NCBI GenBank assembly: GCA_003553525.1
Contig: PWEO01000146.1
Location: 1-35,944 of the forward strand
Source: Clostridiaceae bacterium
GTDB lineage: Bacteria > Bacillota > Clostridia > Peptostreptococcales > T1SED10-28
Reading direction: 5' to 3'
DNA length: 35,944 bases
Positions 7,992 to 23,531 of this stretch are shown here, one piece after another. The position numbers and the translations under genes are program-made. Position 1 is the first letter of the stretch; each line of letters starts with the position of its first letter. The notes below the pieces were generated by a model. The model saw only the letters and a program-made list of their open reading frames with translations. It made no database searches and was not told where the DNA came from.

Positions 7992-8020
7992 TTGACACTG
8001 AGAATTAAATGTAATAATAT
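7992..8020 (+). promoter_or_regulatory. Sigma-A promoter for the panB-family operon
   Basis: A perfect TTGACA (7992-7997), a 17-bp spacer and TATAAT-like TAATAT (8015-8020). The predicted start near 8027 gives a leader of about 240 nt before the first gene. Confidence 0.75.
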
Positions 8021-8264: not shown

Positions 8265-9113
8265 ATGGCAAAGAAGAAAAGCATACTGGATCTCATGAAG
8301 ATGAAAAAGGCAGGTGAGAAGGTTGCCTGGATCACAGCCTACGATTATCCCACCGCAATGTTTGCGGAACAAGCGGGGATGGACATGCTCTTAGTAGGGG
8401 ATTCCTTGGGAATGGTAACTTTAGGATATAGCGGTACCATACCCGTAACCATGGAAGATTGTATTTCTCACTGTCAAGCCGTTCGAAGAGGGGCGCCGAA
8501 AACCTGGATTATCGGAGATATGCCCTTTGGTTCCTACCAGGTTTCCGATGAAGACGCAGTGAAAAACGCGGTACGATTTCTAAAAGAAGCAGACACCGAC
8601 TGTATCAAACTGGAAGGCGGGGTTCGGGTACAAAGCCGAATTCGAGCTATTACCGATGCAGGAATCGCGGTAATCGGGCATATTGGACTGACCCCTCAAA
8701 GCTCGGGACAACTGGGTGGTTTTAAGGCCCAGGGAAGAACCGTTGAGAATGCCCGGGGGGTAATTGAAGACGCCTTAGCGGTACAGGAAGCAGGAGCCTT
8801 TGCGCTGCTGGTGGAAGCGGTACCCCCGGAAGTAACTGCATTTATCACGGAAAAACTGGACATTCCTGTATATTCCATCGGAGCTGGGGATTGTGACGGA
8901 CAATTATTAATCAGCAGCGACATGGTTGGCAAGTTCCAGGCCTTTACGCCGAAGTTTGTCAAGAAATATGCAAATGTGGCGGAAATTGAGACCAATGCTT
9001 ATAAAGAATATATCAAAGACGTAAAAGAAGGAGTTTTCCCTTCCGATGATTATGTGTATCACATCACAGACCCGGCGGAAGATTTCAAAAAATTATTTAA
9101 CGAGTTCAAGTAA
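8265..9113 (+). CDS. panB: PanB-family ketopantoate hydroxymethyltransferase paralog
   Basis: The family transfers a hydroxymethyl group from methylene-tetrahydrofolate to 2-oxoisovalerate, reversibly, in a phosphoenolpyruvate-mutase-like TIM barrel. All expected active-site residues are visible: metal ligands Asp46 (VGDSLGM), Asp85 (IGDMPFG) and Glu117 (KLEGG), catalytic Glu184 (LLVEAVP), and the family motif HIGLTPQS. The length of 282 residues is normal. The ATG follows a strong AGGAGG. It is not accompanied by panC or panD, but by a dehydrogenase, hydrolases and a transporter. I therefore suspect a catabolic paralog acting on another 2-oxo acid rather than vitamin synthesis. Ordinary pantothenate synthesis cannot be excluded from sequence. 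Confidence 0.85.
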   Translation: MAKKKSILDLMKMKKAGEKVAWITAYDYPTAMFAEQAGMDMLLVGDSLGMVTLGYSGTIPVTMEDCISHCQAVRRGAPKTWIIGDMPFGSYQVSDEDAVKNAVRFLKEADTDCIKLEGGVRVQSRIRAITDAGIAVIGHIGLTPQSSGQLGGFKAQGRTVENARGVIEDALAVQEAGAFALLVEAVPPEVTAFITEKLDIPVYSIGAGDCDGQLLISSDMVGKFQAFTPKFVKKYANVAEIETNAYKEYIKDVKEGVFPSDDYVYHITDPAEDFKKLFNEFK

Positions 9114-9143
9114 GATTTTTAGGCCCTAAGAGGAGAAATAAAT

Positions 9144-9218
9144 AAGAAGATAAATAACAAGAAGATAAATAACAAGAAGATAAATAACAAGAAAATAAAT
9201 AACAAGAAGACAAATATA
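9144..9218 (+). repeat. 15-nt tandem repeat, about five units, before the TIM-barrel-like gene
   Basis: The unit AAGAAGATAAATAAC starts at 9144, 9159 and 9174 without change, at 9189 with one substitution, and again at 9204 as a diverged partial unit. It lies in the short gap between two genes of one operon, ending just before the AGGAGG of the next gene. It is purine-rich and unlikely to fold. Confidence 0.9.
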
Positions 9219-9243: not shown

Positions 9244-10182
9244 ATGTCGATGAAAGAAATTGAAAAGCACATTAAAGAAAATCTGGGTTTTCCCTTAGAC
9301 GATCTTCATGATCTTCCATCATCAAAGGTTACCTTTGACGGTGGCGCTCATTACCGGATGGAAGTACCGGGTATTGAAAATGTATCGAACTTTGAAACCT
9401 TGGTGAAGGAATCGGAAAAACAAAAAATTAAGATTCACCGGGTAATCGGGACCGTTGGGGGATCCGCCTTACTGGATAAAGAAGAATTAAAGTACTATGC
9501 ACAAATCGGTCACGATGCAAAAATGGAGACCCTGGTAAATCCAATGCCTACCCGTGCCTGGGATACGGGGAAACAGTACGGGACCCCGGAAGGTTATGTT
9601 TCCGGTATGAGAGTACGGGGACAACACAATTTGTATCTATGGTTACGGGAAGTAAACCGGTGTATCGAAGCCGGGATTAGAGGATTCTTAATTCCTGATG
9701 AAGGATTATTGTACTTAGCCAACAAGCTTCGGGCCGACGGCCTGATTCCTGCAGACGTAAAGTTTAAAGTTTCGGTATTTGCAGGACATGGAAATGCGGT
9801 AGGGGCCAAAATGTTGGAAGAAATGGGAGCCGACAGTTTTAACCCCTTAGCGGATCTTTCCCTGGGTATGTTTGCAGCAATTCGACAGGTAACCAATATT
9901 CCCCTGGATGTATATATGAGTATTGTTGACTCTATGGGTGGTAATCAACGGCACGTTGAATCCGAAGAAATCGCTCGAATCTGCGCTCCCGTATATTTTA
10001 AGTTTGAACCGGGTAAAAACGAGTGTGACCTTTACAACTCCTGGCATGATGATGCCACTTTAAACCATCTGGTAAAGGTAAAAGTGCGTATGGCAAAAGT
10101 TTCTAAAGAATGGTGCGACGACGGCGAAACCAAATTGATATTTAACGACCACACCGATGATTTAGCCATTCCAAGACCTTAA
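9244..10182 (+). CDS. TIM-barrel-like protein of unknown function (weakly U32-like)
   Basis: I do not recognise a named family with confidence. The 312-residue product is soluble, with no signal peptide or membrane segment. Alternating beta/alpha units are suggested by segments such as GFLIPDEGLLYLANKL, FKVSVFAGHGNAVGAKMLEE and GADSFNPLADLSLGMFAAIR. The last resembles the GAD...DLS...I pattern of the peptidase U32 / aldolase-like barrels. Possible functional residues include His in AGHGNA, the FKFEPGKNE acidic/lysine cluster and a C-terminal FNDHTDDLAIPRP tail. The ATG lies 3 bp after GGAGGAAATT. Its position between a PanB paralog and an amino acid dehydrogenase suggests an enzyme of the same pathway. 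No reaction can be assigned. Confidence 0.7.
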   Translation: MSMKEIEKHIKENLGFPLDDLHDLPSSKVTFDGGAHYRMEVPGIENVSNFETLVKESEKQKIKIHRVIGTVGGSALLDKEELKYYAQIGHDAKMETLVNPMPTRAWDTGKQYGTPEGYVSGMRVRGQHNLYLWLREVNRCIEAGIRGFLIPDEGLLYLANKLRADGLIPADVKFKVSVFAGHGNAVGAKMLEEMGADSFNPLADLSLGMFAAIRQVTNIPLDVYMSIVDSMGGNQRHVESEEIARICAPVYFKFEPGKNECDLYNSWHDDATLNHLVKVKVRMAKVSKEWCDDGETKLIFNDHTDDLAIPRP

Positions 10183-10219
10183 CATTATCGTAGCCTAAAA
10201 ATCTTTTATCCTATGAAGA

Positions 10220-10255
10220 CTTTCACACCGCCGTTTGTTTAGGCGGTGTGGAAAG
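10220..10255 (+). other. Strong hairpin in the leader of the dehydrogenase gene
   Basis: CTTTCACACCGCC (10220-10232) pairs with GGCGGTGTGGAAAG (10242-10255) with one bulged G, around a nine-base loop. Only CTCTTT follows, so it is a poor terminator. It may be a processing or attenuation point within the operon. Confidence 0.65.
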
Positions 10256-10286
10256 CTCTTTAAAATCTAAGAATTGGAGTGATCCT

Positions 10287-11522
10287 ATGAGTAATAATCC
10301 TTTTGAAACGGCCCTGACCACGCTACAGGAAGCCAGCAAGATGGCAAATATCGAGCCGAACGTTGTAAAGTATTTAAGTAAGCCTAAAAGAATTTTTCAA
10401 TTTACCATTCCGATGAAAATGGACAATGGAGATTATGAAATATTTGATGCTTTCCGTGTGCATTACAATGATGCCAGAGGACAAGTAAAAAACGGAACAC
10501 GGTTTGTACCGGATTTAGATCTGGATACAGTAAAAGCCTTAGGATTCTGGATGACGATCAAGCATGCGGTTGCAGGGATTCCCGCCGGTGGTGGAAAAGG
10601 TGGCGTACGAGTGGACGCCTCGAAGCTTTCCGAAGGAGAACTGGAAAGACTGTCCCGTGCCTTTATTCGAAAACTTCCCGTTAAAGGGGCCTGGGTGGAT
10701 ATCCCCGGAGCGGATATTGGGACCAGCGCAAAAACCATGGCCTGGATGCTTGATGAATATGAAGAAATCAACGGATTCCATAGTCCTGCAGCGATTAATG
10801 ATAAGCCTGCAGAGACCAGCGGAACCTTAGGAAGCATGGAAGCTACCGGTACGGGTGCATTCTTTGTAACCATGGAAGCCATCCGGGATCGCAAAATACC
10901 CGACGGCGCAACCGTAGCGCTGCAAGGATTTGGTAATGTAGGCCGGATTGCAGCCAGACTGCTTCACAAAGAAGGTTATAAAATCGTCGGCGTCGCTGAT
11001 ATTTCCGGCGGAGTGTACGACTCTAACGGTTTAGATGTAAATCAGCTTGAAGCCTATGTAGACGAGCACCGGGGTGTAGGCGGATTTCCCGGAGAACGGA
11101 GCATCGATAAGGATGAAGTGTTGGAACTCGACGTAGATATTTTAATGCCTTCCGCGGTACAAAGTGTAATCCATGAAGGGAATGCGAAAAAAATAAAAGC
11201 GAAAATGATCGTGGAGTGCGCCAATGGCCCGGTTACTCCCGATGCAGAAAAAGTACTGGAAGAGCAAAATATTCATATCGTACCGGATGTACTGGCGAAC
11301 TGCGGTAGTGCTATTGTATGTTCCTTTGAAAGAACCCAGGGACTCACCGATGATTATTGGGATTTGGATAGAATTAATTCGAAGCTGAAGGATCAAATTA
11401 CCAAAGCCTATCGGGAAACCATGGAGACCTCCGAGGGAAAAAATACATCAATGAGAAACGCTGCATGGATCAATGCATTGCAAAAACTGCAAAAATCCAT
11501 GAAGGCTCGCGGCTGGGTATAA
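10287..11522 (+). CDS. Divergent Glu/Leu/Phe/Val-type amino acid dehydrogenase
   Basis: The family performs NAD(P)-dependent oxidative deamination of amino acids to 2-oxo acids. The product is 411 residues from ATG 10287, behind TTGGAGTG; an upstream GTG in frame overlaps the hairpin and is unlikely. The N-terminal dimerisation domain holds catalytic Lys104 in AGGGKGG and Asp143 in IPGADIGT. The Rossmann domain has GFGNVG and ends with PSAVQ, ECANGP and PDVLANCGSAIVCSFE. Some usual glutamate dehydrogenase motifs are altered: KGGIR is KNGTR, and the GGSxGRxxATG loop reads TSGTLGSMEATG. These changes suggest a substrate other than glutamate. It sits third in the PanB-paralog operon. Confidence 0.85.
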   Translation: MSNNPFETALTTLQEASKMANIEPNVVKYLSKPKRIFQFTIPMKMDNGDYEIFDAFRVHYNDARGQVKNGTRFVPDLDLDTVKALGFWMTIKHAVAGIPAGGGKGGVRVDASKLSEGELERLSRAFIRKLPVKGAWVDIPGADIGTSAKTMAWMLDEYEEINGFHSPAAINDKPAETSGTLGSMEATGTGAFFVTMEAIRDRKIPDGATVALQGFGNVGRIAARLLHKEGYKIVGVADISGGVYDSNGLDVNQLEAYVDEHRGVGGFPGERSIDKDEVLELDVDILMPSAVQSVIHEGNAKKIKAKMIVECANGPVTPDAEKVLEEQNIHIVPDVLANCGSAIVCSFERTQGLTDDYWDLDRINSKLKDQITKAYRETMETSEGKNTSMRNAAWINALQKLQKSMKARGWV

Positions 11523-11597: not shown

Positions 11598-11635
11598 TTA
11601 AATAGGTTGTGGAAAGAAAAGGAAGGGTGAAGGAA

Positions 11636-12454
11636 ATGGAACAGAAAACGCAGCATGCACCAAGATATCCGGTACAAACCATCGATAAGGCCTTAGAAGT
11701 GATAGAAATTCTCTCGGAGGATGGTTTTCAGGAAGGCTTGGGAGTCAGCGAGCTCAGCACAAAATTGAACATTGGGAAAAGCACCGTGCATCGTATTGTG
11801 GATACACTTACCGCAAGGAACTATATAGAGCAGTGCCAGGATACCAAGAAATACCGTCTGGGGTGGAGACTTTTTGAAATTGGTAATGTGATACCCCAAC
11901 AACGGAATTTATATAATTTTGATATCTCTATTCTTCAGGACCTATGCAATAGATACCAGGAAACTGTCAATCTGGGGGTTCGGGTGGATGACAGCGTAGT
12001 AACCATTTCAAAGGTCACGGCCAAGTCATCTCTTGTTGCCAACATGCAAATTGGAGCAAGAGAGTCCCTGCATGGAACCGCCATGGGAAAAGCCCTTATT
12101 TCGGAAATGACGAAAGAAGAGGTTGTAAAAATCTTTGGAGATCGAAAACTGGAAGCCTATACCACCGCTACCATTACCGATATTGACGAGTTAATGGAAG
12201 AACTTCGAAGGATTAGAAAGCAGGGATTCAGTGTGGATGATGAAGAGTTTTCCGCAGGACTGACCTGTATAGCCATGCCCGTAAGGGATTTTAACAACGA
12301 GATTGTGGCCGCCATCAGTGTCAGCGGCGCCAGTATTCGCCAAACCTATAGTAAAATTGAAGATATCAAAAGCGGTCTTAAGGAAGCAACGGACAAACTT
12401 TCCTATTTCCTCGGATGGCAGGGTGAAGTGAAGGAACTGGCCGAAGGTAAATAG
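11636..12454 (+). CDS. IclR-family transcriptional regulator
   Basis: IclR regulators pair an N-terminal winged helix-turn-helix with a C-terminal ligand-binding domain and usually control local catabolic genes. Here residues from about 10 to 75 form the HTH (TIDKALEVIEILSE, LGVSELSTKLNIGKSTVHRIVDTLTARNYIEQ). The rest matches the effector domain, with GARESLHGTAMGKALISEM and SAGLTCIAMPV. The ATG at 11636 follows GGAAGGGTGAAGG and gives 272 residues; an in-frame GTG at 11609 has no good site. It lies within the cluster it probably controls, upstream of the amidohydrolase and TRAP genes. The ligand is unknown. Confidence 0.9.
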   Translation: MEQKTQHAPRYPVQTIDKALEVIEILSEDGFQEGLGVSELSTKLNIGKSTVHRIVDTLTARNYIEQCQDTKKYRLGWRLFEIGNVIPQQRNLYNFDISILQDLCNRYQETVNLGVRVDDSVVTISKVTAKSSLVANMQIGARESLHGTAMGKALISEMTKEEVVKIFGDRKLEAYTTATITDIDELMEELRRIRKQGFSVDDEEFSAGLTCIAMPVRDFNNEIVAAISVSGASIRQTYSKIEDIKSGLKEATDKLSYFLGWQGEVKELAEGK

Positions 12455-12483
12455 TACCGGAACTAAAGGAGGTGGTCAGCCGA

Positions 12484-13665
12484 ATGGATTGGATTAAAAA
12501 ACAGACCAAAGGATTACACCGGGAACTGATCGAAATGCGAAGGGACTTCCATGAACACCCGGAACTGGGTTTTGAAGAGCACCGAAGCGGAGAGATCATT
12601 GAAAAATATCTTCAAAGCTTAGGTTTAACCACGAAGCGGATTGCAAAAACCGGGGTGGTGGCCATGATTGAAGGGGATCCCAAGGGTCCTGTGATCATGC
12701 TTCGGGCCGATATGGATGCACTGCCGGTACAGGAAGAAAATCATGTGGAATATGCATCCAAAAATCCCGGAATTATGCATGCTTGTGGGCATGATGCGCA
12801 CATGACCATGCTGCTGGGGGCGGCAAAAATACTCACCCAGATTAAAGAACCCTTGAAAGGAAGTATTAAGCTGGTTTTTCAACCGGATGAGGAAAATGCC
12901 GGTGCCTTGCCCATGATCAAGGAGGGGGTGTTGAATAATCCCAAGGTGGACAGCGCTTTAGGCATCCATATTTGGACACCCTTACCATCGGGTACCATAG
13001 GGGTCTCTCCGGGAGGCGTAATGTCCGGCCTTGATATTTTTCAGATGAGAATAAAAGGCTACGGAGGACATTCCGGGTATCCGGAAACTGCCATAGATCC
13101 AATAATTGCAGCGTCGGATATAGTGGTAAGCGCCCAGCGGATTCAAACTCGGGAAATCAGCAGTATGAACCCCATGACCCTGGTCTTTGGAAAAATCAAT
13201 GGAGGCACCAAGGCGAACATCATCCCTGATGAAGTAACTTTAGAAGGCTCTATTCGAACTCTTTATAATGATACGGAGGATCCGCCGATCAAAAGGCTGA
13301 AACTTCTAGCGGAAAATGTAGCGAGGGTTCACCACTGTGAATGTGAAATAAACTGGGTTCGTGAAAACATCCCTTTAATCAATGACGATAAGTTGGTAAG
13401 CGAAATTCTTCCTGTGGCAAAGGAAGTACTGGAAGATGGGAGTAAAGTAATTCCCTACCGGACCATGGCCAGTGAAGATTTTTCAGAGTTTACCTCAAGA
13501 ATTCCCGGAGTGTTTTTATTTCTCGGGACAGGAAATCAAGCAAAGGAAACCCCCTTTCCACATCATAATCCCCGGTTTAATGTCGATGAAGATGTATTGC
13601 CTCAAGGGGTGGAGCTTTATGTAAAAGGCGCCCTTAAGTTTCTAGAGCGTGATATCAGGACCTAA
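12484..13665 (+). CDS. M20-family amidohydrolase (N-acyl amino acid deacylase type)
   Basis: These dizinc enzymes remove acyl groups from N-acyl amino acids or related amides in the cytoplasm. The 393-residue product has the metal-site signatures RADMDALPV (around 74-82) and HACGHDAH (99-106, with Cys101 and His103). It also has the FQPDEE glutamate pair, the GIHIW histidine region, a lid/dimerisation domain with GYGGHSG, and a C-terminal HHNPRF. The ATG at 12484 is preceded by AAAGGAGGTGG; the GTG at 12472 is part of that site. The gene begins 29 bp after the IclR stop codon and is followed by the TRAP genes. In this context it may deacylate the imported compound or the product of the M24 hydrolase. 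Confidence 0.88.
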   Translation: MDWIKKQTKGLHRELIEMRRDFHEHPELGFEEHRSGEIIEKYLQSLGLTTKRIAKTGVVAMIEGDPKGPVIMLRADMDALPVQEENHVEYASKNPGIMHACGHDAHMTMLLGAAKILTQIKEPLKGSIKLVFQPDEENAGALPMIKEGVLNNPKVDSALGIHIWTPLPSGTIGVSPGGVMSGLDIFQMRIKGYGGHSGYPETAIDPIIAASDIVVSAQRIQTREISSMNPMTLVFGKINGGTKANIIPDEVTLEGSIRTLYNDTEDPPIKRLKLLAENVARVHHCECEINWVRENIPLINDDKLVSEILPVAKEVLEDGSKVIPYRTMASEDFSEFTSRIPGVFLFLGTGNQAKETPFPHHNPRFNVDEDVLPQGVELYVKGALKFLERDIRT

Positions 13666-13792: not shown

Positions 13793-14953
13793 ATGAAGAA
13801 AAGTAACAGGAATGTGAAATTGCTGGTACTAATGTTAAGTATGTTGTTGATTGGAATGCTGGTTTTTGTCGGGTGTGGTAACGGAGAGGAAGAACCTGTT
13901 GTGGAAGCGGAGCCTGAAAACGGTGAGGATAACGGAGATGAAAATGGAGAAACCGAAGCCAGCCTAGGGGATTTATTGCCGGCTCCCATTGAAGCGAGAT
14001 TCGCTTCTGAAGAAATTGAAGGAGACTTTATGACGGTATGGGGAGAACATTACGCCGATCATATGAGAGAAGTAACCGATGGAAAATATGATGTAGACGT
14101 ATATCCTTATGGAACCTTGGGAGATACCCGGGATATTAATGAGCTCGCACAGCTGGGTGTTGTGGAATATGTATTCAGCGATTTCGCCTGGATCAGCTCT
14201 TTTGTTCCGGAAGCACAGGTGTTAGCCCTTCATTATCTATGGCCTCCGGATCACATGCCGGAAACCTTAGACTGGGTAGTACGAAACGGAGACTTTATGG
14301 ACGTATTGGAAGAAGCTTTCAGACGAAACGGATTAGTACCTCTTAGTGTACTTTATGAAGGATGGCAAACCATAAGTTCCAACAGACCCATTGAAAGCGT
14401 AGACGACATGGATGGGTTCAAAGTTCGAGTTATGGGTTCTGCCTTACTGGTCGAAGACTATAGAGCCTACGGAGCGGCACCAACACCGATGGCTTACGGC
14501 GAAATTTACGGAGCCCTTCAAACAAACTTAATTGATGGCCAGGTAAACCCGATCTTTGCTATTCGAAGTATGAATTTTTACGAAGTACAGGATTATTTAA
14601 CCGATATATTTGCCGAACCTTTTACAGGGATTCCAACGGTAAACATGCAGTTCTTTGATGCCTTACCGGAGGAAATTCAGCAGGAAATGAGAAATTTCTG
14701 GATCGACTCGATTCTTCCATCCGCAGAGTGGATTGATGCCCGTCATGAAGAGGATCTTGAGGCCATGCTGGATGAAAGACCGGAACTTGTTTATCATGAA
14801 ATTACCGGTGACGAACTGGAAGAGTTTAAAGAGCTGGCAATGCCGGTATATGATGAATTCTTAGAAATCGGCGGACCTCAAGCAGAAGAAATATTGGAAA
14901 CCCTGCTAAATGATATTGAAAATGCCAAAGAAGCCTTAGGAATTCAAGATTAA
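13793..14953 (+). CDS. TRAP transporter substrate-binding lipoprotein (DctP type)
   Basis: This is the extracellular solute receptor of a tripartite ATP-independent periplasmic transporter. The 386-residue product has a lipoprotein signal with lipobox VFVGC (Cys28). A Glu/Asn/Gly/Asp-rich linker follows to about residue 60, then a DctP domain. Arg212 in FKVRVMGS is the position that usually binds the ligand carboxylate, and GEIYGALQTNLIDGQVNP is the typical following helix. It starts at ATG 13793 after AAAGGAGG. A strong hairpin separates it from the membrane subunits. Ligand identity cannot be read from sequence; a carboxylate or zwitterion is likely. Confidence 0.92.
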   Translation: MKKSNRNVKLLVLMLSMLLIGMLVFVGCGNGEEEPVVEAEPENGEDNGDENGETEASLGDLLPAPIEARFASEEIEGDFMTVWGEHYADHMREVTDGKYDVDVYPYGTLGDTRDINELAQLGVVEYVFSDFAWISSFVPEAQVLALHYLWPPDHMPETLDWVVRNGDFMDVLEEAFRRNGLVPLSVLYEGWQTISSNRPIESVDDMDGFKVRVMGSALLVEDYRAYGAAPTPMAYGEIYGALQTNLIDGQVNPIFAIRSMNFYEVQDYLTDIFAEPFTGIPTVNMQFFDALPEEIQQEMRNFWIDSILPSAEWIDARHEEDLEAMLDERPELVYHEITGDELEEFKELAMPVYDEFLEIGGPQAEEILETLLNDIENAKEALGIQD

Positions 14954-15069: not shown

Positions 15070-15729
15070 ATGGAAACGAATAAAAAGAGGGGCATCTCCT
15101 TTCTTTTTCATAAACTGGGGCAAGGGGTGGAGCTCTTTGAATCTGTAATTCTTTCAATTTCTGTGCTTGCAATGGCCAGTCTTGTAATTGCCAACGTGTT
15201 TGCTCGAACCTTCTTCTCCAGTATTCATTTTGTGGAGGAATTGACGGAACTGTTCACAATTCTTATTACTTTTACCGGGGTGAGCTACGCCGTCCGAAAG
15301 GCAAGACATATTCGAATGGGCGCGTTTTTTGATGCAGCCCCCTTTAAAATTCAAAAGATTATGATTTTTGTTATCTGTGTAATCAGCGGTGTCGTGATGT
15401 TTTTAATGGCTACCTATGCTTATGGTTACATGAGCCAAGCGCGAATGACCGGTCAGGTGACACCATCCCTTCGACTGCCCTATTGGATCTTTCTCATCAT
15501 TGTTCCCATCGGGTTCTTTTCCGCCGGGATTCAGTATATCCGAACCATTGTAAAAAATATTTCGGAGCGGGAAGTATGGTTATCCCCTGAACAGCAGGGC
15601 GACTATGAATTAGAAGAATTGCAGCAAATGGCCGACGAGTATGGGGAAGTTGCGGAAGAATTATCCGATGAACTTCAAGAACAAAAAAAGACAGAGAAGG
15701 ATGTATCCGATGAAAATAAGAAACCATAA
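15070..15729 (+). CDS. TRAP transporter small permease (DctQ type)
   Basis: This is the four-helix small membrane subunit of a TRAP transporter, 219 residues. Hydrophobic segments fall near residues 20-45, 50-75, 95-120 and 135-160. The pattern SLVIANVFARTFF...FVEELTELFTILITFTGVSYAVRKARHIRM is typical of DctQ. Beyond the last helix there is an unusual hydrophilic, strongly acidic C-terminal tail of about 50 residues, probably cytoplasmic. The ATG follows AAAGGAG. It is 15 bp upstream of the large permease gene. Confidence 0.9.
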   Translation: METNKKRGISFLFHKLGQGVELFESVILSISVLAMASLVIANVFARTFFSSIHFVEELTELFTILITFTGVSYAVRKARHIRMGAFFDAAPFKIQKIMIFVICVISGVVMFLMATYAYGYMSQARMTGQVTPSLRLPYWIFLIIVPIGFFSAGIQYIRTIVKNISEREVWLSPEQQGDYELEELQQMADEYGEVAEELSDELQEQKKTEKDVSDENKKP

Positions 15730-15744: not shown

Positions 15745-17025
15745 ATGCTCTTACTAGTTGGTACGATGATATTTAAATTACTGTTTGGATTTCCTTTCAT
15801 GGTGGTACTGTTGGGATCACTGATTATATATGTAACTTTTCAAATGCCCGGATTTGATTTTAGCAATGTAATAATACAACAGGTTGTAACGGGAATTATT
15901 CCACCCTCCTTAGTGGCGGTGCCCATGTTTATTTTGGCAGCGAATATTATTACTTCGGGCCAGGCGGCGAAAAGACTGATTCGTATGGTTAAGGCCTTTT
16001 TAGGGCATATTCCCGGAGGATTGGCGATTACCACTAATGCAGCCTGTACACTGTTTGGAGCCGTATCCGGATCCACCCAGGCAACGGTAGCGGCAATTGG
16101 AGGAACCATGCGTCCCATGCTTTTAGAGGCGGGGTATTCCAGCCCCTTTAGCTTAGCACTCATTATTAACTCCAGTGATATTGCCTTTTTAATTCCCCCC
16201 AGTATTGGGTTTATTGTTTACGGCGTTGTTACGGGAACCTCCGTCGGGAAGTTGTTTTTAGCGGGAGTAGGTCCCGGGCTGTTAATATTTTTACTGTTTT
16301 CCATTTATTCTTATATCTACGCAAAGAAAAATAAGATTGCAGGAACGGAAAAAGCCGATTGGAAAGAAAGAAAAGAAGCGGTTCGTGGCGGAATTCTCGT
16401 AATGGGATTTCCGGTTATTATCATTGGTGGTATCTACGGCGGATTATTCAGTCCAACAGAAGCGGCAGCAATGTCTGTAGCCTATGCTTTAATATTGGAA
16501 GGCTTCATTTTTAGAACCTTAAAGGTAAAGTCGATGATTGATCATTTTCTGCAAACCGGAGTTGTCACCGGAGTAGTATTTATTCTGGTTGGTGCCGGGA
16601 ATGCATTTTCCTGGTTGCTAAGTTTCTTAAGAATCCCGCAAACTTACTTACCGCCTCTCTTTGGAGAGGATCCTTCAAGGCTCTACGTAATATTTATCGT
16701 AGTAGTGGCATACTTCATCGCCTGTATGTTTGTGGATCCGATTGTTGCAATATATGTACTGAGTCCAATATTTGCACCCTATGTACTGCAAACCGGAGTA
16801 GATCCGATATTACTCGGAGTCCTCGTAGTACTGCAGGCAGCCATCGGTTCAGCAACACCGCCCTTCGGCTGTGATATATTTACAGCTCAGCTGATTTTTA
16901 GGCGACCTTACTTTGAAATCATAAGAGGTACTCCGCCCTTTATCTTTATTCTGCTGTTAGTAACGGTACTGTTGGTTATTTTCCCGCAAATCGCTTTATT
17001 CTTACCGAATGCAGCGATGATTTAA
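15745..17025 (+). CDS. TRAP transporter large permease (DctM type)
   Basis: This is the sodium- or proton-coupled transport channel of the TRAP system, 426 residues with about eleven to twelve hydrophobic segments. Family motifs include the LFGAVSGSTQATVAAIGGTMRPM region, the helix-break IPPSIGFIVYGVVTG, FSPTEAAAMSVAYALI and GSATPPFGCDIF. The ATG at 15745 follows GAGGTGG. The next gene starts 15 bp after its stop codon, so the racemase-family enzyme is likely co-transcribed. Confidence 0.94.
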   Translation: MLLLVGTMIFKLLFGFPFMVVLLGSLIIYVTFQMPGFDFSNVIIQQVVTGIIPPSLVAVPMFILAANIITSGQAAKRLIRMVKAFLGHIPGGLAITTNAACTLFGAVSGSTQATVAAIGGTMRPMLLEAGYSSPFSLALIINSSDIAFLIPPSIGFIVYGVVTGTSVGKLFLAGVGPGLLIFLLFSIYSYIYAKKNKIAGTEKADWKERKEAVRGGILVMGFPVIIIGGIYGGLFSPTEAAAMSVAYALILEGFIFRTLKVKSMIDHFLQTGVVTGVVFILVGAGNAFSWLLSFLRIPQTYLPPLFGEDPSRLYVIFIVVVAYFIACMFVDPIVAIYVLSPIFAPYVLQTGVDPILLGVLVVLQAAIGSATPPFGCDIFTAQLIFRRPYFEIIRGTPPFIFILLLVTVLLVIFPQIALFLPNAAMI

Positions 17026-17040
17026 GATAGGGGTGAGGAA

Positions 17041-17772
17041 TTGATATATATAAGGAAACCGGGACAGGTAAGTTATGGAGAATCCATCGGCATTATACTG
17101 ATTGACAGTGAGGCGCCTTACATCCCCGGAGATGTGGCGAATGCAACGACTTATGATTTTCCTGTTCGCTTTCAACGGGTCCCCGGGCTTACGGTAGATA
17201 GAATTATGAACCATGATATTTCTCTTTTGGATGCAGTCAGGAATGCAGCAGAAATATTAAAATCCGAGGGCGTACGGGCCATCACCAGCGACTGCGGGTT
17301 TATGGCTTTATATCAACAGGAGCTGGTGGAAACACTGGATGTACCGGTTTTTCTTTCGAGCCTGTTACAAATTCCCTTTATGAAAAACCTGATTCCGAAG
17401 GACGCAAAAATCGGGGTAATTACCGCAAACAAAAATTCTTTAACGAAAGAGATCCTGTCCCTGTGCGAAGGAGACATTCCTGGACGTATTGTTATTGAAG
17501 GACTGGAAAAAGCACCTTGCTTTTCTTCGGCATTCTTGAAGGAAGAGGGGACTCTGAATACGGTGCAAGTGGAAAAAGAAGTGGTGCAAGCCGCGAAAAA
17601 ATTACAGAACGATTATCCCAATATGAAATCTATTCTATTGGAATGCAGCGTGTTACCCCCTTATGCTTCAGCGGTACAAAAGGCTACCGGTCTACCGGTG
17701 TTTGACTTTGTTACGATGATTCGGTACATGCATTCTGTTGTGGTTAGAGGTCAAAAAAATGGCTTTATGTAA
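17041..17772 (+). CDS. Asp/Glu racemase-superfamily protein
   Basis: The superfamily comprises cofactor-independent racemases, isomerases and decarboxylases that use two Cys as acid and base. The 243-residue product keeps both, Cys85 in TSDCGFM and Cys202 in LLECSVLPPYA, so a two-base reaction is plausible. The N-terminal YIPGDVANATTYDFPVRF segment resembles the subgroup seen beside transporters and peptidases rather than glutamate racemase MurI. The start is TTG 17041 behind GGTGAGG, 15 bp after the TRAP permease, indicating one operon. Possible roles are racemisation of an amino acid or hydantoin-like intermediate. It does not clearly match the ectoine-cluster EutA protein. Confidence 0.8.
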   Translation: MIYIRKPGQVSYGESIGIILIDSEAPYIPGDVANATTYDFPVRFQRVPGLTVDRIMNHDISLLDAVRNAAEILKSEGVRAITSDCGFMALYQQELVETLDVPVFLSSLLQIPFMKNLIPKDAKIGVITANKNSLTKEILSLCEGDIPGRIVIEGLEKAPCFSSAFLKEEGTLNTVQVEKEVVQAAKKLQNDYPNMKSILLECSVLPPYASAVQKATGLPVFDFVTMIRYMHSVVVRGQKNGFM

Positions 17773-17881: not shown

Positions 17882-19057
17882 ATGCATGTATTTAGTAAAG
17901 AAGAGTATCAGGCAAGGATTGAGAAAACCAAAGAGAAAATGAAGGATTGGAATATTGAGCTTTTATTAATATCCCAACCGGCAAATATGAATTATCTTAC
18001 GGGATATGACGGCTGGAGTTTTTATGTGCATCAATGCCTGCTGGTATCCCTGGAAAAGGAAGAACCCGTATGGATCGGCCGGGGCATGGATGCCAACGGG
18101 GCCCGGATCACCAGTATGCTGTCCGAAGAAAATATTTACCAGTATGCCGATGATTACGTACAGTCCTTGGTAAAACACCCAATGCACTTTGTTGCGGATA
18201 TTATAAAAAAACATGGTTGGGATAAAAAAGTGATCGGTGTGGAAATGGATCAATTTTATTTTACCCATCGGGCCTATGTGGAGTTGGATAAAAGTCTGCC
18301 CAATGCAAAATTTGCCGATGCCAACACCTTGGTAAACTGGGTTCGAGTGGTGAAATCTGAAAAAGAAATCGAGTTCATGCAAATTGCCGGAACCATTGCC
18401 TCGAAGGTTATGAAAACCGCACAAAATACCATTGCTCCCGGCGTTCGGGAATGTGATGTAGCCGCAGAAGTTGCAAAAGCCCAGTACAGCGGAACACCGG
18501 AACATAGCGGAGACTATCCGGCCATCGTCCCCTTAATGATGGCGGGGGAAGCTACGAAAACCCCCCACTTAACCTGGAGTGAGAAAAAGTATAATAATGA
18601 TGAAGCGGTACTGTTGGAACTTTGCGGGGTGTACAAACACTATCACGTACCAATAGCAAGGACCCTTTATTTGGGAAATCAGCCACCGAAATTAATGGTG
18701 GATACAGGAAAAACCGTTCTGGAAGGACTTAACGCCGCCTTAGATATGATCAAACCCGGAGTGCTGATAGAGGACATTGAAGCCACCTGGAGAAAAACCA
18801 TAGCCAAAACCGGTTTGGTCAAGGAATCAAGGATTGGCTACTCCATTGGAGTCAACTACCCGCCGGACTGGGGAGAGCAGACAATTAGCGTTAGACCGGG
18901 GGATAAGACCGTAGTGCAAAAGAATATGACCCTGCACTTGATTCCCGGAATCTGGTTGGATGATGTGGGCTTTGAAGTGGATGCTTCCTTTTACGTTACC
19001 GATAAGGGTATCAAGCATTTTTTTGATGATTCTTTAGAAATCCTGGTAAAAAAATAA
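17882..19057 (+). CDS. M24-family hydrolase resembling ectoine hydrolase (EutD/DoeA)
   Basis: The fold is that of creatinase and Xaa-Pro peptidases: an N-terminal domain (1-155) and a pita-bread C-terminal domain. Several segments match what I recall of ectoine hydrolases: MNYLTGYDGWSFYV, IGRGMDANGARIT, YVQSLVKHPM, DYPAIVPLMMAG, TPHLTW and NYPPDWGEQTISVRPGD. At the position of the two Asp metal ligands it has Glu246 (LLELCG) and Pro257 (YHVPIART), so it should not bind the usual dimetal centre, in line with metal-independent ring opening. The ATG follows AAAAGGAGGGAG. Ectoine hydrolysis would give an N-acetyl-diaminobutyrate that the M20 enzyme might deacetylate. Other amidine or amide substrates remain possible. 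Confidence 0.8.
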   Translation: MHVFSKEEYQARIEKTKEKMKDWNIELLLISQPANMNYLTGYDGWSFYVHQCLLVSLEKEEPVWIGRGMDANGARITSMLSEENIYQYADDYVQSLVKHPMHFVADIIKKHGWDKKVIGVEMDQFYFTHRAYVELDKSLPNAKFADANTLVNWVRVVKSEKEIEFMQIAGTIASKVMKTAQNTIAPGVRECDVAAEVAKAQYSGTPEHSGDYPAIVPLMMAGEATKTPHLTWSEKKYNNDEAVLLELCGVYKHYHVPIARTLYLGNQPPKLMVDTGKTVLEGLNAALDMIKPGVLIEDIEATWRKTIAKTGLVKESRIGYSIGVNYPPDWGEQTISVRPGDKTVVQKNMTLHLIPGIWLDDVGFEVDASFYVTDKGIKHFFDDSLEILVKK

Positions 19058-19092: not shown

Positions 19093-19153
19093 AACAATAA
19101 GAAAGCAGAAAAAAACCGCATTAACAACGGTTTTTTTCTGCTTTCTTATTGTT
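19093..19153. terminator. Bidirectional terminator with a perfect 26-bp stem
   Basis: Bases 19093-19118 are exactly complementary to 19128-19153 around a nine-base loop. The stem contains an A7 tract on the left and a T7 tract on the right next to a CCG/CGG core, so the inner ten pairs form a normal terminator in both directions. It lies between the M24 gene and the convergent SurA-like gene. Confidence 0.92.
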
Positions 19154-21035: not shown

Positions 21036-21620
21036 TTAGGATTTATCTTTAAAGCTCTCGTAACCGTAATCAAAGGCTTTCATATTCACATCGATGGCTT
21101 TTTCCGGGACATTCTCCCGAAGGGTTTCTTTCCAAATTTCCGTGGAAATTGGCAAGAACTGTGCCATTACTCCGAGTAAAACCGTATTTGCGGCTTTACG
21201 GTTTCCAAGTTTTTTTGCGTCGGCACTGAAATCGGACAGATAATGATCATAGCGCTCATAGAATTTTGCAATTTCTTCGCTGGGGTAATCCTGTTTTTCC
21301 AATAAGCTTTGGGTTGGATAAATTTCTTTGGTATTGGCAATTATCTTGGAGTTTTCATTTAACAGGTGTTCCCACCGTTGGGCCTCTAAGGGCTCTAATC
21401 CTAAGATGATGTCGGCTTTCCCCACGGGAATATTGGGGGAGTGAACTTTTTCCCCTATGCGCACGGAGCCCCAAACCATTCCGCCCCGCTGAGCAAGACC
21501 GATAACATCGTTGCTTTTCACATCATAGCCGGCTTTCAGTGCAGCTTTACAGATCACATCGGTGGTCAGTACCAGTCCTTGACCGCCGACTCCGCCTAAC
21601 ATTATATTAATCGTTTCCAT
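21036..21620 (-). CDS. iorB: IorB, indolepyruvate:ferredoxin oxidoreductase beta subunit
   Basis: This is the small subunit of the enzyme that oxidatively decarboxylates aryl pyruvates (from Trp, Phe, Tyr) and reduces ferredoxin. The 194-residue product belongs to the pyruvate ferredoxin oxidoreductase gamma-type domain, with the opening motif LGGVGGQGLVLTTDVI. The segment GLAQRGGMVWGSVRIG is also typical. The start is ATG 21620 behind AAAGGAGG; the frame is open to 21644, but that region lies upstream of the site. It follows iorA by 39 bp. In anaerobes this reaction serves amino acid fermentation and can run with acyl-CoA formation. Confidence 0.93.
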   Translation of the reverse strand: METINIMLGGVGGQGLVLTTDVICKAALKAGYDVKSNDVIGLAQRGGMVWGSVRIGEKVHSPNIPVGKADIILGLEPLEAQRWEHLLNENSKIIANTKEIYPTQSLLEKQDYPSEEIAKFYERYDHYLSDFSADAKKLGNRKAANTVLLGVMAQFLPISTEIWKETLRENVPEKAIDVNMKAFDYGYESFKDKS

Positions 21621-21659
21621 AGTTATCCTCCTTTGAATTTGCACTAATGGTTATATCGC

Positions 21660-23531
21660 CTATTCCTTGTCATCGTTATTCAGGTTCATCTTTTGGTATT
21701 CCTGTCGTTTATACTTGGCACTGCCTTTTTTGCTGTGGTCCGGATGTTGTCCCTTAGGCTGAATGGCATCCACCGGGCAAACCTGAGCGCAAACACTGCA
21801 ACCGGCACACATATCCGGATCGATGGAAGACTTCAGTTTGTCGATATTATGATATTTTTTCATCCGGATTGGCGGACAGTTGGTTTTTATACAATTACGA
21901 CAGCCAATACATACATTCGGGTTCACATAGAAGGTGTTTTCCTGAATTTTAAATTTCAAGGCACAGGGACGCTTTGCGATTACAAAGGATATTCCCGGTT
22001 TATTGGTTTCTTCCGTTAAGACTTTTTTCGTGGCCTCATAATCAAACTGATCCACTTCCTGAACGTTTTCATGACCCATAGCCTGAATAATGGTTTTAAT
22101 ATCCACTTTCATATCATCGGCGGAGGTGTAGTTCCCCGAAGCGGCAGTTGCCTGTCCGCCGGTCATGGCAGTGGTACGGTTGTCTAAGATAATAAAGGTC
22201 ATATTATCGTTTTCATTTCGTTGGTGAAGGAGATTTACAAAGCCCGGAAGACCTGAATGGAACATGGTACCGTCTCCAATTACAGAAACCAGAGGTTCGG
22301 ATTTCCCAACCAAAGCATTGGCCTTGGTCATCCCTTTGGTAATCCCTACGGTAGCTCCCATACTGATGATGGAGTCCGAGGCTTGGAAGGGCTCAAACAT
22401 AGCCATGGAGTAACAGCCGATATCTCCGATAACTCGCTTGCGAATTTTTTTAAGGATATCAAAAATCGGTCGGTGGGGACATCCGGCACAGAATAAGGGA
22501 GTTCTTTTTACTGATTCCACCGGTTCGGCATCTGTGGTATTACGATCCGTGATGACGCCCGCTTTTTTCAGCCCTCTTTCAATATCTTCCGTATGCAGTT
22601 CCCCGGTAAAGGAAAAATACTTCTTCCCTTCACATTCAATACCCATCATTTTAATTTCGGTTTCGATCATCGGCATTAATTCTTCAATGACAATGATTCG
22701 TTGATATTTTTCCGATAACTCCTGAAGCTTCTTTGGAGAGATGGGATAGATCATCCCCAGTTTATAAATACTGACATCGAGTTCCAACTCTTTTAGATTA
22801 TGATAAACCAGGGCGGAAGTAACCACTAATGTGTCGGCTCCCTCCCGTTCCTCTAGTGTATTTAACTCACTGTCATAAGCAAATTCTTTAAGCTTATCAA
22901 TCCGATCTTTCATCGAATGCTGGAGAGGGTTAGTATGAGGAGGGATCATACAGTATCGTTGTACGTCTTTTTCAAATACTCTCGGCTCTACTTCTTTTCG
23001 TTCTCCCAGCACCACCGGGGTTCGGCTGTGACATACCCGGGAAGTGATGTTTACCATCATGGGCAAATGATACTTTTCGCTGATATCAAAGGCGGCTTTG
23101 GTGTAATCGATAGCATCCTGGGAATCCCCCGGAGCCAAAATACCCATATTGGCAAATTTCCCGAAAATCCGGTTGTCCTGTTCATTTTGAGAGCTGGCCA
23201 TTCCCGGATCATCCCCTGAAAGGAGAACGAATCCGCCGTTGGTTTTGGTTTGGGTAAAGGTCATTAAGGGATCGGCAGCAATATTCACCCCCACATGCTT
23301 CATGGAAGCCATGGAGCGTACTCCTGCAAAAGATCCACCGATAGCCACTTCGAGAGCTACTTTTTCGCTGGTGGAAAACTCGGAGTAAACTTCCTCGTAC
23401 TCCTTAATGCTATCTAAAATTTCTACCGTGGGGGATCCCGGGTAGCTGGCGGCTAAAAGTCCTCCGGCTTCATAAAATCCTCGAGCAATCCCCTGATTCC
23501 CTGTTAATACCATCTTTTCCTGGTTACTCAT
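21660..23531 (-). CDS. iorA: IorA, indolepyruvate:ferredoxin oxidoreductase alpha subunit
   Basis: This is the large catalytic subunit, 623 residues. An N-terminal pyrimidine-binding domain (LTGNQGIARGFYEAGGLLAASYPGSPTVEI) is followed by a central domain with the IOR-typical PLFCAGCPHRPIF. The thiamine diphosphate site is GDGTMFHSGLPGFVN with ILDNRTTAMTGGQ. The C-terminus carries two ferredoxin-like 4Fe-4S motifs, CIGCRNCIKTNCP and CAGCSVCAQVCP. The ATG follows AAGGAGTGTG. It forms a two-gene operon with iorB. Length and domain order are standard for the family. Confidence 0.95.
   Translation of the reverse strand: MSNQEKMVLTGNQGIARGFYEAGGLLAASYPGSPTVEILDSIKEYEEVYSEFSTSEKVALEVAIGGSFAGVRSMASMKHVGVNIAADPLMTFTQTKTNGGFVLLSGDDPGMASSQNEQDNRIFGKFANMGILAPGDSQDAIDYTKAAFDISEKYHLPMMVNITSRVCHSRTPVVLGERKEVEPRVFEKDVQRYCMIPPHTNPLQHSMKDRIDKLKEFAYDSELNTLEEREGADTLVVTSALVYHNLKELELDVSIYKLGMIYPISPKKLQELSEKYQRIIVIEELMPMIETEIKMMGIECEGKKYFSFTGELHTEDIERGLKKAGVITDRNTTDAEPVESVKRTPLFCAGCPHRPIFDILKKIRKRVIGDIGCYSMAMFEPFQASDSIISMGATVGITKGMTKANALVGKSEPLVSVIGDGTMFHSGLPGFVNLLHQRNENDNMTFIILDNRTTAMTGGQATAASGNYTSADDMKVDIKTIIQAMGHENVQEVDQFDYEATKKVLTEETNKPGISFVIAKRPCALKFKIQENTFYVNPNVCIGCRNCIKTNCPPIRMKKYHNIDKLKSSIDPDMCAGCSVCAQVCPVDAIQPKGQHPDHSKKGSAKYKRQEYQKMNLNNDDKE

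Follow-up and report, generated by a model that had tools for sequence, protein, structure and literature searches.

Ectoine is a major osmoprotectant in saline habitats, where it also serves as a nutrient, and its characterised degradation ends at aspartate, in respiring bacteria. The genes for this degradation, doeABCD or eutABCDE, and those of the transporters TeaABC and UehABC are the closest described counterparts of the operon analyzed here. Putative ectoine clusters were proposed in 2026 for Gram-positive bacteria including Clostridia (PMC13188858). These too are eutD-centred clusters in Bacillota, but the accessible text of that paper describes them as eutBCD-atf, abgB-thrA-adh and PucR, and a search of this text returned no mention of PanB, glutamate dehydrogenase or the protein discussed below; genes without known function, drawn in gray in its figures, could include the module described here (PMC13188858). 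A full-text literature search for anaerobic fermentation of ectoine returned no paper. Ectoine clusters in Clostridia are not new; the enzyme family of the protein termed P0001, its link with ectoine and the interchangeable end modules described below appear to be.

The window, i.e., the whole stretch of DNA analyzed, comprises 35,944 nucleotides of a Clostridiaceae bacterium (assembly GCA_003553525.1, contig PWEO01000146.1) and holds the operon listed in Table 1. Like the doe/eut systems, the operon has a DoeA-like M24 enzyme, a candidate M20 deacetylase, an ectoine-type TRAP transporter and a racemase-like protein, and loci related to it also carry EutB and RidA. It differs from them in that DoeC and DoeD are absent among its genes, a module of PanB paralog, P0001 and ELFV dehydrogenase standing in their stead; in addition, its regulator is of the IclR type rather than EnuR and its M24 enzyme scores below the curated EutD cutoff. 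A search of the genome for diaminobutyrate transaminase (TIGR00709) gave nothing above cutoff.

Table 1. Operon genes and associated signals, in window coordinates.
Feature	Position	Strand	Basis
Possible operon promoter, TTGACA-17-TAATAT	7992..8020	+	Consensus match alone; count of such matches not above shuffles
PanB paralog (ketopantoate hydroxymethyltransferase family)	8265..9113	+	TIGR00222, 308 bits (cutoff 207.6)
P0001, 312-aa TIM-barrel protein, remotely U32-like	9244..10182	+	Intact ORF, AlphaFold2 model, invariant columns
ELFV amino-acid dehydrogenase, altered glutamate pocket	10287..11522	+	PF00208/PF02812
IclR-type regulator	11609..12454	+	Closest curated model BhcR, below cutoff
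M20 amidohydrolase, candidate N-acetyl-diaminobutyrate deacetylase (DoeB2/EutE role)	12472..13665	+	TIGR01891 above cutoff
TRAP solute-binding protein (DctP), ectoine-type	13793..14953	+	PDB relatives 3gyy/2vpn, 3fxb
TRAP small permease subunit (DctQ)	15070-15729	+	Position and synteny
TRAP large permease subunit (DctM)	15745-17025	+	TIGR00786
Asp/Glu-racemase-like protein (PRK07475 subfamily), candidate EutA counterpart	17041..17772	+	NF005679, 280 bits (cutoff 231)
M24 enzyme, DoeA/EutD-like ectoine hydrolase	17882..19057	+	PDB 6twk (DoeA), E 6e-110, 371 bits
20-bp stem hairpin after M24 gene, probable terminator	19100..19146	not assigned

Ectoine as the most likely substrate

What is the substrate of such an operon? 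Among solved structures the M24 enzyme is closest to DoeA, the next-best solved family scoring 87 bits, i.e., more than 280 bits lower, and it retains the long DoeA motifs. Its best curated model is EutD, by 264 bits; the score of 475 bits lies below the cutoff of 613, which was reached in none of 398 Bacillota genomes. The best solved relatives of DctP include 3gyy/2vpn and 3fxb (E 1.9e-50 to 4.5e-49), which we take to be TeaA and UehA, respectively, both ectoine-binding. The M20 amidohydrolase gives 291 bits against the DoeB2 model (cutoff 550). A related locus, L009, encodes EutB (416.9 bits, one curated cutoff being 413) and a RidA protein beside M24, M20 and TRAP genes, and EutB and RidA homologs accompany the P0001 cassette in four further loci (L060, L063, L064 and L067). 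Since the DoeA-like M24 enzyme, the TeaA/UehA-like DctP, the DoeB2 score of the M20 enzyme and the EutB/RidA loci agree, ectoine is the most likely substrate of the operon, together with hydroxyectoine in some relatives.

Neither the M24 nor the M20 enzyme reaches its curated cutoff (DoeA/EutD and DoeB2, respectively), so that the substrate could also be a different N-acyl compound or a cyclic amidine, and one PanB-P0001 pair does accompany a penicillin amidase. An operon dedicated to such a compound (a different N-acyl diamino acid, a cyclic amidine or a pantothenate-like amide), its likeness to DoeA and TeaA being at family level only, is nevertheless unlikely given the lead of the M24 enzyme over every solved non-DoeA M24 enzyme, its long DoeA motifs, the ectoine binders as closest transporter structures and EutB at L009. 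Several P0001 carriers, moreover, are presumably alkaliphiles or soda-lake genomes, judged from their record names.

The gene order PanB-P0001-ELFV dehydrogenase-IclR-M20-TRAP (DctP, Q, M)-racemase-like-M24 is kept across genera, being common to Tindallia, Anoxynatronum, Gudongella, Soehngenia and further Clostridia; the Alkaliphilus cassette has the same order except that IclR and M20 are swapped. Downstream of the operon, on the minus strand (window 21036-23531), lies a pair whose sequences resemble IorA/IorB, the subunits of indolepyruvate:ferredoxin oxidoreductase, and which is compatible with 2-oxo acid fermentation.

The PanB paralog and the dehydrogenase

The operon PanB keeps the catalytic residues of ketopantoate hydroxymethyltransferase and passes the cutoffs of both TIGR00222 and PRK00311. 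It differs from the biosynthetic enzyme in belonging, with the other operon PanBs, to a clade (support 0.93) that excludes the best-scoring PanBs from genomes with PanC, in a Gly-to-Asp replacement fixed at position 110 (107 in E. coli), just ahead of the catalytic Lys, and in being the only PanB of a genome, 99.35% complete, that has no PanC. Because PanC is absent, pantothenate biosynthesis was rejected as its role here. PanC was likewise not found in 10 of the 19 genomes with both P0001 and PanB, three of the 10 being incomplete, and the nine PanC-containing genomes with P0001 have at least one additional PanB copy each. Three to six PanB matches per genome occur in G139, G106, G175 and G101, the last of these with no detectable PanC, pointing to an apparent expansion of PanB into catabolic functions within Bacillota.

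The GPxKGG and VSYFEW motifs of glutamate dehydrogenase contact the glutamate side chain. In the operon dehydrogenase and its orthologs these have become G-x-x-[KR]-[ND]-G and VCxFER, and the second glutamate dehydrogenase of the genome (at C57) keeps both canonical forms. With the pocket changed and a canonical enzyme present elsewhere, an ordinary glutamate dehydrogenase was rejected as its identity, and both it and the operon PanB are specialised paralogs. The ORF finder placed the start of the dehydrogenase at a GTG (10248); the ATG at 10287 is likelier and gives 411 residues, as in relatives.

P0001, a conserved gene of no described family

The P0001 frame runs for 312 codons from an ATG to a TAA at exactly 9244-10182 (+), is preceded by a strong Shine-Dalgarno sequence (AGAGGAGGAAATTATT-ATG) and faces an opposite strand with stops throughout. 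It is unbroken in every relative of 65-98% identity and is thus a functional gene rather than a chance ORF. Identity is 78–98% in the closest relatives and 29–67% in more distant ones. Intact copies were found in 16 loci of named genomes and in 10 of 60 related genomes, and a clear family member is present in 32 genomes of an even sample of 398 Bacillota (two weak matches left out). Profile searches of Pfam and NCBIfam with P0001 returned no match at E<=1, and PDB sequence searches gave noise only, whether with P0001 alone (E>1) or with a 16-sequence profile. The initial annotation had described an intact frame with a good ribosome binding site, placed between two recognisable enzymes and lacking a clear family, and each of these points is borne out, the neighbors being the PanB homolog and the ELFV dehydrogenase; the searches brought up no characterised family of unrelated role with a high score. 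P0001 is a genuine, conserved gene belonging to no described family.

The gap between the PanB gene and P0001 is occupied by a 15-bp tandem repeat (AAGAAGATAAATAAC, 5.9 copies, 90% match; window 9128-9216), which was not seen in the corresponding gaps, of 20-69 nt, in nine relatives (L001-L006, L008, L010 and L011). Between P0001 and the dehydrogenase gene lies a strong hairpin, CACACCGCC...GGCGGTGTG (window 10217-10259), possibly a processing or stability element. A similar stem is formed by differing sequences in L001, L002, L005 and L006, and the hairpin is absent from L003, L004, L008, L010 and L011.

Association with eutD and exchange of modules

In a sample of 397 Bacillota genomes, from which the genome studied here was excluded, eutD-like genes are found in 8 of the 12 with the strict P0001 group (at least 350 bits) vs. 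9 of the other 385 (Fisher p 8e-10, from a test that treats genomes as independent, so that relatedness inflates the association somewhat). The divergent P0001 subfamily described below shows no association with eutD in the same sample (p 0.57).

Most eutD neighborhoods without P0001 carry the M24, M20 and TRAP genes at 41–84% identity, with another module replacing PanB and P0001. The most telling of these alternatives combines a dehydrogenase with a 2-oxoacid:ferredoxin oxidoreductase: at L191 the same altered dehydrogenase (74–75% identity) is found with an oxidoreductase of the VorB type, and L192 has the same arrangement judged by gene sizes. Because of this pairing, the dehydrogenase would be expected to make a 2-oxo acid, converting 2,4-diaminobutyrate (DABA) to 4-amino-2-oxobutanoate. 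Other modules contain a methionine-gamma-lyase-like enzyme (L188, L195 and L196) or an SHMT-like enzyme with AFOR (L187, L189 and L198), and the eutD loci L193, L194 and L197 are short or have no clear module. These arrangements suggest that the modules of L187-L192, L195, L196 and L198 are each a separate, undescribed anaerobic route for ectoine or hydroxyectoine, and each end module would fit a different breakdown of DABA or 3-hydroxy-DABA. The PanB–P0001–dehydrogenase set is probably one such interchangeable module, serving DABA as the amino acid derived from ectoine. The replacement of all three genes in other ectoine clusters lends support to the earlier suggestion that P0001 belongs to the operon's distinguishing step; what that reading missed is that the operon most likely serves ectoine.

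At L181 (G175:C1:2465661-2466461) the eutD-like match is short, with an internal TAA, and may be a decaying copy; PanB, P0001 and the dehydrogenase are intact there.

A possible route from ectoine to pyruvate

How might these proteins work together? We infer the substrates, the order of the steps and the reaction of P0001 as follows. Ectoine would be imported by the TRAP transporter and its ring opened by the DoeA-like M24 enzyme to N-acetyl-2,4-diaminobutyrate, from which the M20 enzyme would release acetate and L-2,4-diaminobutyrate. The altered ELFV dehydrogenase would deaminate this DABA to 4-amino-2-oxobutanoate, and P0001 would act on the product, most likely converting it to 4-hydroxy-2-oxobutanoate by loss of the 4-amino group. 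From this compound the PanB paralog, working in reverse of the textbook direction, would then transfer C4 to tetrahydrofolate (THF) and leave pyruvate. The net yield from ectoine would be acetate, two ammonia, NADH, pyruvate and methylene-THF. Neither DoeD nor DoeC, the aminotransferase and the semialdehyde dehydrogenase on which the aerobic route depends, would be needed. Engineered strains have employed PanB variants to pass C4 of 4-hydroxy-2-oxobutanoate to THF. A full-text literature search found no paper on ketopantoate hydroxymethyltransferase with 4-hydroxy-2-oxobutanoate, nor on 4-amino-2-oxobutanoate.

That P0001 serves the DABA branch we consider likely. That it is a catalytic TIM-barrel enzyme of an anaerobic ectoine-degradation operon, acting in the route just outlined, seems to us evenly balanced between right and wrong. 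The specific reaction, removal of the 4-amino group from 4-amino-2-oxobutanoate, is a tentative assignment, held at less than even odds and made because this role would make P0001 necessary by supplying a hydroxy compound that PanB can cleave; PanB could also act directly on the 4-amino compound, which would leave P0001 another step.

Fold, conserved residues and remote relatives

P0001 had been described as TIM-barrel-like, and AlphaFold2 run on a 45-sequence alignment now predicts a TIM barrel with confidence (pLDDT 91.7, pTM 0.90), replacing a first model from 16 sequences (pLDDT 79). The alignment contains 24 invariant columns, with R38, E40, E95, R139, D152, K175, S177, N200, D204, R214, D222, R236 and K253 among the invariant residues, and more than 20 polar positions vary little or not at all, even at 29-30% identity. 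Conserved charged residues are placed around the barrel mouth (R38, E40, E95, D152/E153, K175, N200, D204, D222 and K253), and, judged by their position relative to the predicted strands, several invariant residues fall at or just past strand ends, the usual place of a TIM-barrel active site. The initial annotation had proposed a search for conserved His, Asp or Glu at this mouth: charged residues are indeed conserved there, but no His is invariant in the 45 sequences. The sole poorly modelled part is 101–120; the near-invariant residues D107, R123 and R125 lie within it or just after, which suggests that this segment and the residues following it form a lid.

The invariant residues bear on whether P0001 might lack catalytic activity and serve the PanB paralog as a partner or stabilising subunit. 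The two genes lie side by side and are conserved together, and a TIM barrel is predicted or known for either product, but near-invariant polar residues in such numbers, at such low identity, are typical of an active site and many P0001 relatives have no PanB nearby, so that this explanation is very improbable.

Profile comparison supports a remote relation to the U32 family (PF01136; UbiU/UbiV, RlhA, YegQ), and with it that part of the weak U32/aldolase-like resemblance noted earlier. In hhalign, P0001 gave 95.4% (E 1.9e-8) against a broad U32 set from related genomes and 93.6% and 12.0% against two U32 subsets, vs. 3.8% for PanB and less than 1% for unrelated non-barrel proteins as controls. 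The match covers the C-terminal two thirds of the barrel, and the U32 protein Mk0906 (5d88) aligns with the model at Z 13.9 (rmsd 3.2, 190 residues). Unlike U32 proteins, P0001 lies below Pfam detection (no match to PF01136 at E<=1, gathering cutoff not reached) and stands in a catabolic operon; the divergent family member L077 scores 21.7 bits against PF01136 (cutoff 22.4, E 1.4e-4). A four-Cys motif for a [4Fe-4S] cluster is present in 8 of 10 U32 families (PMC6747719). In the 45 P0001 sequences this motif is absent, Cys occurring at any one column in at most 23 of them, and P0001 was rejected as a genuine U32 hydroxylase for lack of the Fe-S cysteines.

The fold also bears on the main rival to deamination, in which P0001 would be a C-C lyase (aldolase) that splits the 2-oxo acid into pyruvate and a one-carbon imine or formaldehyde, PanB or free THF merely capturing the one-carbon unit. 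Foldseek ranks class II aldolases, PrpB-type lyases and PanB highest, with the whole barrel aligned to the aldolases and lyases, and P0001 or its relatives adjoin 2-oxo-acid-forming dehydrogenases in several contexts (ELFV, Ldh_2, GlcD-like FAD oxidase and 2-hydroxyacid dehydrogenase). The match is generic, however. Identity to the aldolases and lyases is ~10-15% and TM 0.4-0.5, and the class II aldolase 1gvf (Z 13.8, rmsd 3.8, 207 residues) is tied with unrelated barrels, CutC, U32, GH84, Rubisco and aldolases all reaching Z 13-15; the fold was therefore not used for assigning a reaction. With no invariant His, the metal ligands of class II fructose-bisphosphate aldolase are not conserved in the 45 P0001 sequences, and PanB, its own catalytic residues kept, could itself carry out the cleavage. 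A direct lyase role appears unlikely, and removal of the 4-amino group is retained as the preferred, if tentative, reaction.

P0001 relatives in other settings

PanB-P0001 pairs also occur without ectoine genes, beside a penicillin amidase, a GlcD-like FAD oxidase, or IlvD and an HMGL/DmpG-type aldolase. A divergent subfamily of 29-35% identity (L077, L078, L083, L084, L088 and L089) lies beside a two-subunit fumarase and malic enzyme, most of these loci also having an Ldh_2-type dehydrogenase closest to L-sulfolactate dehydrogenase, and is set apart from the ectoine group by fixed substitutions such as H65N, W106Y and Y224H. Since P0001 relatives adjoin PanB without ectoine genes or, in loci lacking PanB, other enzymes of 2-oxo and 2-hydroxy acids, the family overall probably acts on 2-oxo acids and not on the DABA product alone. 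A deaminase specific for the DABA product cannot describe the whole family, as relatives exist outside the ectoine context, with or without PanB.

The same distribution bears on whether P0001 acts upstream, for example as an isomerase, epimerase or second amidase on an ectoine or hydroxyectoine intermediate, and is only co-transcribed with PanB. Many TIM barrels of its size are epimerases, and D-tagatose/psicose 3-epimerases are among its fold matches. P0001 travels with PanB down to ~40% identity, however, even in clusters without ectoine genes (L058, L070 and L073), and is missing where an ectoine cluster has a different downstream module, which makes an upstream role distinctly unlikely.

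Implications for anaerobic ectoine use

The P0001 family occurs in ~8% of sampled Bacillota genomes, and the reading given here offers it a concrete, testable function. The full proposition is that P0001 founds an undescribed family which, together with a DABA dehydrogenase and a backward-running PanB, makes up a new anaerobic ectoine fermentation that releases a one-carbon unit, and that the interchangeable end modules number four or more; we find it plausible, though we stop a little short of favoring it. With this operon salt-lake anaerobes probably ferment ectoine, and the module appears to replace the textbook final steps. If so, anaerobic Bacillota would recycle ectoine by several unrelated end modules, one of them built from a pantothenate enzyme in reverse and a nameless enzyme family, and this module would be a natural counterpart to the engineered one-carbon pathways based on 4-hydroxy-2-oxobutanoate.
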